Positions 24,838 through 26,930 of a stretch of DNA of 43,063 nt are shown piece by piece. Source of the DNA: Vicinamibacteria bacterium (GTDB lineage Bacteria; Acidobacteriota; Vicinamibacteria; Fen-336). The stretch spans positions 1-43,063 of the forward strand of contig JAICEW010000011.1 in assembly GCA_025923995.1 (NCBI GenBank), in the 5' to 3' direction. A program made the position numbers and the translations under genes. The notes below the pieces were generated by a model. The model was not told the origin of the DNA. It saw only the letters and a program-made list of their open reading frames with translations, and did not search any database. How positions within the stretch are numbered: the stretch's first letter is position 1; every line of letters begins with the position of its first letter.

Positions 24838-24868
24838 AGCGAAGGAGTGGCTGGGACGCAGGGATTCG
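24838..24868. repeat. Duplicated tRNA-Gln 3' end, distal copy (31-bp direct repeat)
   Basis: These 31 bp are identical to 24943-24973 and begin 5 bp after the sugar dehydrogenase stop codon. They contain the CCA end, discriminator, acceptor 3' strand and part of the T arm of tRNA-Gln in minus orientation, plus 10 bp of flank. The match breaks off inside the T loop. The spacing between copies is 105 bp. A partial tRNA 3' end beside an intact tRNA is typical of a former integration or of slippage. Confidence 0.85.
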
Positions 24869-24942: not shown

Positions 24943-24973
24943 AGCGAAGGAGTGGCTGGGACGCAGGGATTCG
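24943..24973. repeat. 31-bp direct repeat, proximal copy covering the tRNA-Gln 3' end
   Basis: This is the second perfect copy of the repeat at 24838-24868. Its last 21 bp lie inside the intact tRNA-Gln gene. Confidence 0.85.
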
Positions 24974-25026
24974 AACCCCGATAAGCAGAGTCAGAGTCTG
25001 CTGTCCTACCGTTGGACGACGTCCCA
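24953..25026 (-). tRNA. tRNA-Gln (anticodon CTG), CCA encoded
   Basis: Read from 25026 down, the gene folds into a full cloverleaf. The acceptor TGGGACG pairs perfectly with CGTCCCA. The D arm is GTCC-AACGGTA-GGAC. The anticodon arm is GCAGA-CTCTGAC-TCTGC with CTG at positions 34-36. The variable loop is TTAT, the T arm is CGGGG-TTCGAAT-CCCTG, the discriminator is G, and CCA is encoded at 24955-24953. The length is 74 nt with CCA. It reads glutamine codon CAG, the favoured one in this GC-rich DNA. Promoter boxes lie upstream at 25044-25072. Confidence 0.97.
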
Positions 25027-25072: not shown

Positions 25073-25125
25073 GCCGGAGGGGCGCGCCCCAGGTTCCGTG
25101 GCATGATCGGTCCACCGGAGGCCAA

Positions 25126-25254
25126 GTGGGCGAACCCGATGACGACGCGCCCGTCCCCCTGTTCGGCACCTGGACGCGCATCTACGCCGCGGTGCTGCTG
25201 AACCTGCTGGTGATGATGGCGCTGCTGCTCGCCTTCTCCCGGTGGCCCTATTGA
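25126..25254 (+). CDS. 42-residue single-pass membrane protein, symporter-coupled
   Basis: A GTG start at 25126 with GGAGG (25117-25121) 4 nt before it opens a 42-codon frame. It encodes an acidic N-terminus (VGEPDDDAPVPLFGTW), then TRIYAAVLLNLLVMMALLLA, a single transmembrane helix, and the end FSRWPY. Its stop TGA (25252-25254) lies inside the start region of the sodium:solute symporter, giving a 13-nt overlap with GTG 25242 or a TTGA overlap with TTG 25251. The good ribosome site, strong amphipathic layout and coupling argue for a real gene. I believe similar tiny proteins precede symporters in other bacteria, as the DUF4212 small subunits do, but this one is much shorter. A symporter accessory subunit is the simplest guess. 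Confidence 0.75.
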   Translation: MGEPDDDAPVPLFGTWTRIYAAVLLNLLVMMALLLAFSRWPY

Positions 25255-26930
25255 CCGGCCTCGACTGGGCCGTCCTCATCGTCTACCTCGTCGCGATCGT
25301 CGGGTTCGGCATCTGGATCGGCCGGGACACCAAGCAGATCTCGGACTTCTTCCTGGCCGGGCGCGAGATGCGGTGGTGGGCGGCCGGCCTCTCGGTGATG
25401 GCCACCCAGATCAGCGCCATCACGTTCGTGGGCACCACCGGGCAGGCCTACACGACGGGCATGTCGTTCCTGGTCGTCTACTTCGGCCTGCCCATCGCGA
25501 TGGTGGTCCTGTGCCTGACGCTCGTGCCCTTCTTCTATCGGTCGGGCGTCTTCACCGCGTACGAGTACCTGGAGAAGCGCTTCGACTCGCGCACGCGCAC
25601 GCTCACCAGCCTCCTGTTCCTCTTCTCGCGCGGGCTCGCGATGGGCGTGACGCTCTACGCGCCTTCGCTGGTGCTGTCGGTGATCCTGGGCTGGAGCGAG
25701 ACCACCACGATCCTGGTGATGGGCGGCACCACCATCCTGTACGTCGTCCACGGCGGGAACAAGTCGGTCATCTGGACCGACGTCGTGCAGATGCTGATCA
25801 TCTGGATCGGCATCTTCATGTGCGCGGGCGTCGCGATCGCCAACCTGCCGGAGACCTTCTCCCTGCGCGACTCGCTGGCCGTCGCGCAGATCACGAACCA
25901 TCTCGAGATGATGGACGTGTCGGCCGACCCGGCGAAGCCCTACACGCTGTGGAGCGGCCTCATCGGCGGCGCCTTCCTGGCCATGGCCTACTTCGGCGCC
26001 GACCAGAGCCAGGTCCAGCGCTACCTCTCGGCGCGCAGCCTCCAGGAGAGCCGGCTGTCGCTGCTGTTCAGCGGGTTCCTCAAGGTGCCGATGCAGTTCC
26101 TGATCCTGCTCACGGGCGTGCTGGTGTTCGTCTTCTACCACTTCGAGCGGCCGCCCCTGCTGTGGAACGCGCAGGCGATGCACCGGCTGGAGCGCGAGGC
26201 GCCGGCCGACGCGGCGGCGATGAACACGGCTCTCGGGAGCGCCCATGCCGACCGGCAGGCGGCCGCGGCGGAGTACGCGCGCACGCGCAGCCCGCAGGCG
26301 CGCGAGGCGTACGTCGAGGCGCACGGGCGCCTGTCGTCGATCCACCAGCAGGCGGGCCGCCGCATCACCGAGCTGTCGGGAGCGAAGAGCTACAACGACA
26401 CGAACTACATCTTCCCGTCGTACGTGATCTCGATGCTGTCGGGCGGCCTGGCCGGGCTGGTGATGGCCGTCATCTTCGCCGCGGCCATGTCGACGCTGGC
26501 GGGCGAGTTCAACTCGGTCGCGACTGCGACCATGGTCGACTTCTACCAGCGCTTCGTCCGCAGCGACGCGAGCGCCTCGCACTACCTGTGGATGTCGCGC
26601 CTGTTCACCGCGCTGTGGGGCGGCTTCGCCTGCCTGGTCGCGCTGCGGGCGGGCCAGCTCGGCTCGGCCATCGAGGTGGTCAACCGCTTCGGGTCGTACT
26701 TCTACGGCTCGATCCTCGGCGTCTTCGGCCTGGCCATCCTCACGCCGCGCGCCTCCGCCCGCGGCGCGTTCTACGGCCTCATCGCCGGGATGGCGACGGT
26801 CTACCTCGTGTCCCGGTTCACGACGATCGCCTTCCTCTGGTACAACGTCGTCGGTGCCGTCACCGTGTTCGTGGTCGGCCTGGTGATCACGGCCGCCGCA
26901 CCGGGACCAGCGCGTCCCGCAGCCGCCTGA
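25242..26930 (+). CDS. Sodium:solute symporter (SSS/SLC5 family)
   Basis: This 562-residue membrane protein has the LeuT-like SSS fold. TM1 is DWAVLIVYLVAIVGFGIWIG, followed by DFFLAGREMRWWAAGLSVMATQISAITFVGTTG, where the unwound TM1 and Na+ site signature lie. A later SSS signature is GGLAGLVMAVIFAAAMSTLAGEFNS. About 12-13 helices can be counted. A hydrophilic, helical insert of about 90 residues (305-395) lies between the helix ending VLVFVFYHF and NYIFPSYVISML. Related acidobacterial and bacteroidete SSS proteins have similar inserts. The substrate (sugar, amino acid or organic acid) is not deducible. The start may be GTG 25242 or TTG 25251; in both cases it overlaps the 42-residue gene, indicating translational coupling. 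The tricorn gene follows after 56 nt. Confidence 0.92.
   Translation: MALLTGLDWAVLIVYLVAIVGFGIWIGRDTKQISDFFLAGREMRWWAAGLSVMATQISAITFVGTTGQAYTTGMSFLVVYFGLPIAMVVLCLTLVPFFYRSGVFTAYEYLEKRFDSRTRTLTSLLFLFSRGLAMGVTLYAPSLVLSVILGWSETTTILVMGGTTILYVVHGGNKSVIWTDVVQMLIIWIGIFMCAGVAIANLPETFSLRDSLAVAQITNHLEMMDVSADPAKPYTLWSGLIGGAFLAMAYFGADQSQVQRYLSARSLQESRLSLLFSGFLKVPMQFLILLTGVLVFVFYHFERPPLLWNAQAMHRLEREAPADAAAMNTALGSAHADRQAAAAEYARTRSPQAREAYVEAHGRLSSIHQQAGRRITELSGAKSYNDTNYIFPSYVISMLSGGLAGLVMAVIFAAAMSTLAGEFNSVATATMVDFYQRFVRSDASASHYLWMSRLFTALWGGFACLVALRAGQLGSAIEVVNRFGSYFYGSILGVFGLAILTPRASARGAFYGLIAGMATVYLVSRFTTIAFLWYNVVGAVTVFVVGLVITAAAPGPARPAAA

Follow-up and report, generated by a model that had tools for sequence, protein, structure and literature searches.

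A conserved single-helix membrane microprotein paired with one clade of sodium:solute symporters, and its probable role as their accessory subunit

The window, by which we mean the whole stretch of 43,063 nucleotides analysed here, holds a frame of only 42 codons immediately ahead of a gene for a sodium:solute symporter (SSS). Is this frame a gene and, if so, does its product belong to the transporter that follows? The features on which the question turns are these:

25117 to 25121, forward strand: Shine-Dalgarno-like GGAGG, read directly, 4 nt (CCAA) ahead of the GTG of the small frame
25126 to 25254, forward strand: small gene for a 42-residue single-pass membrane protein, a proposed symporter accessory subunit, called on conservation and purifying selection
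25180 to 25236, forward strand: likely transmembrane helix, residues 19–37 of the small protein, read from the sequence, with helices modelled in the related pairs L084 and L017
25251 to 25254, forward strand: TTGA overlap between the TTG start of the symporter and the TGA stop of the small gene, its position matching the overlaps of relatives
25251 to 26930, forward strand: sodium:solute symporter (SSS/SLC5-like; PF00474, TIGR00813), 559 residues from TTG 25251 (562 from GTG 25242)
26157 to 26399, forward strand: symporter insert after the eighth transmembrane helix, about residues 306–386 in the numbering from GTG, unaligned against vSGLT

The small frame runs from GTG 25126 through 42 codons to a TGA stop at 25252–25254, and its product is MGEPDDDAPVPLFGTWTRIYAAVLLNLLVMMALLLAFSRWPY. 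Rereading the sequence gave the GGAGG, the GTG, the acidic N-terminus and the one hydrophobic helix just as the preliminary description had them. That description also placed the small-gene stop inside the symporter start; the overlap is borne out, but the symporter start itself had to be moved to TTG 25251, which is probably the right one because the start codon of the relatives aligns there. Such an overlap would couple translation of the small gene to that of the symporter. A lone short open frame in the 72% G+C DNA of this window carries little weight, and it is conservation that makes the case.

We searched for the symporter in 60 genomes, the window's own among them, and extracted the loci; a search of named genomes with the symporter alignment added 80 loci, the best 80 of 585 matches, most of which also carry the small frame. 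All 14 order-level orthologs (L006–L019) are preceded by the pattern VP.FG[TS]W..IY and a hydrophobic stretch; most class-level orthologs have in the same place a diverged version that reads roughly R..Y..V, hydrophobic stretch, F...F. A profile hidden Markov model (HMM) of 71 seeds was run over the ortholog loci. In 130 out of 139 it placed the small frame on the coding strand, no more than 172 nt ahead of the symporter, and the 11 paralogous SSS loci gave 0 such matches; the seeds were drawn from the same 139 loci, among which L075, L095 and L107 repeat genomes already counted. Some of the 130 matches are weak when taken standalone (L038 at E 0.62, L102 at E 0.2, L026 and L143 at about 0.07). 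The frame is visible by eye in three further loci (L119, L135 and L150), and at six of the 139 (L033, L058, L062, L091, L099 and L144) neither the HMM nor the eye found an adjacent one. The clean test is a held-out HMM, trained on the window's class only (L005–L063) and applied to 77 other loci without the three repeats: it recovered 40, 59, 66 and 68 of them at E 1e-6, 1e-3, 0.01 and 0.1, respectively, matched none of the 11 paralogs and, at E ≤ 0.1, nothing else among the 18,806 frames that these loci contain. This recovery and the absence of off-target matches rule out a chance frame. Of the 130 frames that the HMM detected, 56 have a stop that overlaps the symporter start (ATGA in 46, GTGA in 7 and TTGA in 3, the window included), and the small proteins are about 28–60 residues long across the family, with starts that are partly guessed. 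The preliminary description had proposed looking for a conserved short frame upstream of homologous SSS genes, and such a frame was present in 66 of the 77 held-out loci at E ≤ 0.01 and in none of the 11 paralogs.

Constraint on the small protein was estimated as pooled, uncorrected pN/pS over the last 34 codons. In close relatives it was 0.025/0.609 for three Pedobacter and 0.132/0.609 for two Pontibacter, and by genus it was 0.082/0.247 in g12 (7 loci), 0.040/0.436 in g27 (2 loci), 0.207/0.502 in g11 (3 loci) and 0.182/0.485 in g7 (2 loci). The 15 loci from the order of the window (0.296/0.456) and the three of genus g6 (0.202/0.262) showed weaker constraint. Purifying selection is thus strong in close comparisons and less so in some wider ones; the comparison of synonymous and non-synonymous change that had been suggested came out clearly within closely related groups such as Pedobacter, but much less so in the order to which the window belongs. 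Across 160 aligned members, in window numbering, Tyr20 is kept in 151, Val23 in 131, Trp16 in 119 and Phe37 in 117. On these comparisons the 42-residue frame is a real gene, for what is predicted to be a conserved single-helix membrane protein; it is conserved in its own right and tied to this symporter, and neither of the two outcomes named beforehand as speaking against it, a missing conserved frame or frameshifts across relatives, was encountered.

The tie to the symporter was then followed genome by genome. The small protein was found in 56 of the 56 genomes with a symporter ortholog and in 0 of the 4 without (E ≤ 0.01), these four (G003, G023, G048 and G058) having weaker SSS matches only; the window's own genome holds a single match at that threshold (HMM search). 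Of 149 Acidobacteriota genomes, a set that overlaps the 60, 47 have the symporter at E ≤ 1e-80. A small-protein match at E ≤ 1e-4 was obtained in 44 of these 47 and in 0 of the 102 genomes without symporter. Adjacent matches in G035 (5e-4) and G174 (0.006) bring the count to 46 out of 47, and G255 is the one symporter genome of this set in which no small-protein match convinces. Among 99 Bacteroidota genomes, 37 have the symporter at E ≤ 1e-60 and all 37 have the small frame: 25 by matches at E ≤ 1e-4, 9 more by adjacent matches at E ≤ 0.1 and 3 by eye (G080, G149 and G156). The small gene adjoins the symporter in 34 of these 37 and lies about 15 kb away in 3. The 62 Bacteroidota without symporter gave one match below 1e-4, in G095, which lies ahead of a truncated symporter; 16 more of them gave matches between 0.004 and 0.1, many within long frames, which we take for noise. 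The G095 locus (L196; G095:C19:30000-34000) has an intact small frame and a symporter N-terminus followed by a break into a C-terminal remnant, and this symporter is a truncated or misassembled copy. The small protein therefore co-occurs with one SSS clade, as an accessory subunit should, G255 and G095 being the exceptions; related genomes within these sets are not independent.

We consider it probable, from sequence comparison, that the small protein, a genuine single-pass membrane protein, serves as an accessory subunit to a single orthologous clade of SLC5-like SSS transporters. The alternative that survives best, which we nevertheless regard as unlikely, is a separate regulator of the symporter, acting on its turnover or inhibiting it like MgtR, MgtS or MgtU, and not a standing subunit. 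Proteins of this size are documented in such roles: PMC10710835 describes AcrZ, MgtS, MgtU and MntS, of 28–49 residues, as acting on transporters, as regulators or stabilisers, though these transporters are of other classes than the symporter here. Genomic evidence of the present kind cannot separate a regulator from a subunit, but the constant pairing and the 4-nt overlap suggest production matched to that of the symporter, and a regulator would more often be expected to have its own control or to be lost.

The same overlap, together with the position of the small frame ahead of the symporter, would also suit a cis-acting leader, an inert peptide whose translation only opens the symporter start. 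This is very improbable given the residue conservation across phyla and the low pN/pS in close relatives, and a leader-only role is rejected mainly because unlinked copies, found in four genomes, cannot act in cis. G049 has one small-gene match, 150 kb from its symporter (L033); G067 (L144) and G068 (L091) have one match each with no symporter within 1.5 kb; and in G280 symporter and small gene are on separate contigs, the start codon of the small gene being ambiguous there. In addition, some 15 kb separate the small gene from a symporter encoded on the same strand in G094, G106 and G122. In the last of these (L195; G122:C12:202500-220500) about 14.6 kb with other genes intervene, which by eye look transporter-like, kinase-like, outer-membrane receptor-like and like a sigma/anti-sigma pair. 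The extra co-orthologs L058 and L062 of G045 and L099 of G066 have no adjacent small frame, and each of these two genomes holds a small-gene copy beside another co-ortholog (L032 and L121, respectively). The unlinked and the distant copies argue for a small protein that acts in trans.

That the partner is an SSS (SLC5) protein is supported by profile scores above cut-off, 181.7 bits for PF00474 (cut-off 22.8) and 275.3 bits for TIGR00813 (cut-off 184), and by the SSS fold modelled for the ortholog L084. Pairs in which the small-gene stop is in frame with the symporter were read through as one tethered chain, and two of these, L084 and L017, were modelled with AlphaFold2 on an alignment of 63 rows (31 tethered, 32 symporter alone). 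The L084 model, which has the longer tether, reached a mean pLDDT of 91.5 and a pTM of 0.90, with the linker at 35–48 below 50 and a small helix at 6–33 (pLDDT by ten-residue block 65, 91 and 88); the L017 model, nearer the window, reached 86.9 and 0.86, with a helix at 19–40 (blocks 73, 77 and 63). The tether may bias both models. The nearest solved folds to the L084 model were SiaT (Z 41.7; 465 residues, 2.2 Å), SMCT1 (38.2), NIS (38.0) and SGLT2 (36.2), a list dominated by the symporter part of the chain and not by the small helix. Mean-field direct coupling analysis (DCA) of 160 pairs (effective number 124) gave inter-protein couplings spread across the entire symporter, and conservation in the small protein showed no significant helical periodicity (p 0.21; by ranks 0.18).

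In DUR3 and some other SSS proteins there is an additional helix at the N-terminus, and the small gene, directly upstream of the symporter, could be imagined as that first helix detached, a split piece and no added subunit, but four DUR3 rows align to the L084 model only from residue 37–39, past the small helix at 6–33, and no fused form was met among the loci read (a reading that was not systematic), so that we give this origin scarcely any credence.

An insert of roughly 70–80 residues is present in the symporter clade, in place of which seven paralogs (L064–L069 and L071) have only a short loop, as judged by eye; in the L084 model the insert region contains helices at 357–365, 369–398 and 402–434. 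The insert may be a marker of the clade that also has the small partner. According to record titles of the best 80 of 585 matches, the clade spans Acidobacteriota, Gemmatimonadota, Bacteroidota, Ignavibacteriota and others, and genomes of Pedobacter, Pontibacter, Chitinophaga and Psychroflexus are among the same 80. A plasmid collection contained no close ortholog of the Pedobacter symporter, one record covering at least 80% of the query at 25% identity.

Family catalogues were searched for the small protein. The protein of the window fell into no family in Pfam or NCBIfam scans, and 126 members of the family gave only scattered weak matches. The NCBIfam scan of these members returned 22 families at E ≤ 1, and for Pfam 25 of the 51 families at E ≤ 1 are listed, by member count and then by E, down to E 0.1; the best matches, with one member each, were PF06823 (3.8e-4) and TIGR03732 (9.6e-4). 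A close likeness by description is NF045580, 'symporter small accessory protein', an NCBIfam model of 33 positions that responds to a probe sequence with one hydrophobic helix. It is not among the 22 NCBIfam families, however, and differs in its distribution: none of 60 Acidobacteriota genomes has it, and among 14 control genomes 1 does, that of Methanosarcina acetivorans.

Several known small partners of transporters were also compared. DUF4212, DUF3311 and DUF997 (YhdT) are small membrane proteins encoded beside SSS genes, longer than the present one and forming separate families, and none of them was among the Pfam matches listed (25 of 51 families, 126 members). PMC9100948 describes a DUF3311 gene that adjoins the mctP symporter gene, both down together in the same regulon, and presents MctS as a histidine kinase and not as a small symporter subunit. 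The methionine/alanine importers have MetS (NF033493/NF033494), likewise a very short partner (30-position model) of a sodium symporter; its partner is, by the model name, an NSS transporter, whereas the partner here is an SSS protein (PF00474), and no MetS match was found among the 126 members at E ≤ 1. In animals, MAP17 is a protein with one transmembrane helix and a cytosolic tail, longer than the small protein described here. It too is a small partner of SLC5 transporters (SGLT1/SGLT2), and its Pfam model was not among the matches listed (25 of 51 families, 126 members). According to PMC10203128, MAP17 (PDZK1IP1) is a small subunit of SGLT2 with a structural role that binds TM13, raises surface expression and stays largely unchanged through the transport cycle, and its role is debated between activation and surface delivery. 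Full-text searches of an open-access library brought up no paper that we recognised as dealing with the present pair of small protein and symporter. The preliminary description had held that a tiny coupled subunit would be a new kind of SSS accessory, and in that form the idea is not supported, tiny symporter partners being already known (NF045580 and, for NSS, MetS); what is new is the family, with no covering Pfam or NCBIfam model among the matches listed, and not the kind.

The surroundings of the pair were also inspected. Ten neighbour proteins of related loci, the window's own neighbours being left out, were scanned and give no common substrate: four have a PIG-L domain (L109, L147, L076 and L118), and the other six are fucosidase-like, TIM-barrel, PhzF-like, glyoxalase-like, BNR-repeat and one without match. 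In those four loci the PIG-L-domain protein, of 835–925 residues, lies directly upstream of the pair, and frames of similar size (814–888 residues) occupy that position in nine others among the 16 loci listed. In 12 of 124 small genes (e.g. L031, L090, L098, L112 and L126) the chosen start is preceded by a TANNNT hexamer whose end is exactly 6 nt away, and the other distances between 0 and 49 nt account for 0 to 5 small genes each; a subset of the messages may be leaderless and begin at the small gene. Upstream in the window, a repeat of about 31 nt was noticed by eye at 24838–24868 and 24943–24973, 105 nt apart, and overlaps one further feature:

24953 to 25026, reverse strand: tRNA-Gln gene, its 3' end lying in the 31-nt repeat

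The arrangement resembles what a partial duplication of the tRNA, or an old attachment site, would leave.

Taken as an accessory subunit, the small protein would be made just before the symporter and coupled to it. Its charges make a weak case for an N-in, C-out topology, because Lys/Arg are commoner just before the helix (frequencies 0.31, 0.49 and 0.51 at positions 14, 17 and 18) than after it (0.49 and 0.16 at positions 39 and 42); Asp/Glu are located further N-terminal than the Lys/Arg before the helix (160 aligned members). The symporter N-terminus is outside in this superfamily (PutP, SGLT-type proteins), so that a C-out small protein would have its end on the same side. On insertion the helix would then leave its acidic N-terminus in the cytoplasm and bring its C-terminus to the outside, beside the symporter N-terminus, an orientation probably opposite to that of MAP17. 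Packed against the transporter, it would aid folding, stability or activity, as MAP17 does with SGLT2, and by this analogy a structural role of that sort is the likeliest one.

A transporter clade spread over several phyla thus appears to have a component that is unnamed in the family databases searched. Should attempts to express these symporters or to solve their structures fail, the absence of the partner is an obvious suspect, and Pedobacter, Pontibacter, Chitinophaga and Psychroflexus offer bacterial systems for studying what an SLC5-type transporter gains from a subunit of one helix. The case is also a clean example of a tiny gene validated through genome-wide co-occurrence and unlinked copies. 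More tentatively, and at a little under an even chance, we propose that transporters of this clade consist of two components, one of them a near-obligate micro-subunit of about 40 residues that works in trans, a bacterial counterpart of MAP17, and that helper helices are general in SLC5-type transporters. If the two-component reading is true, the clade has so far been misread as a single-protein transporter.
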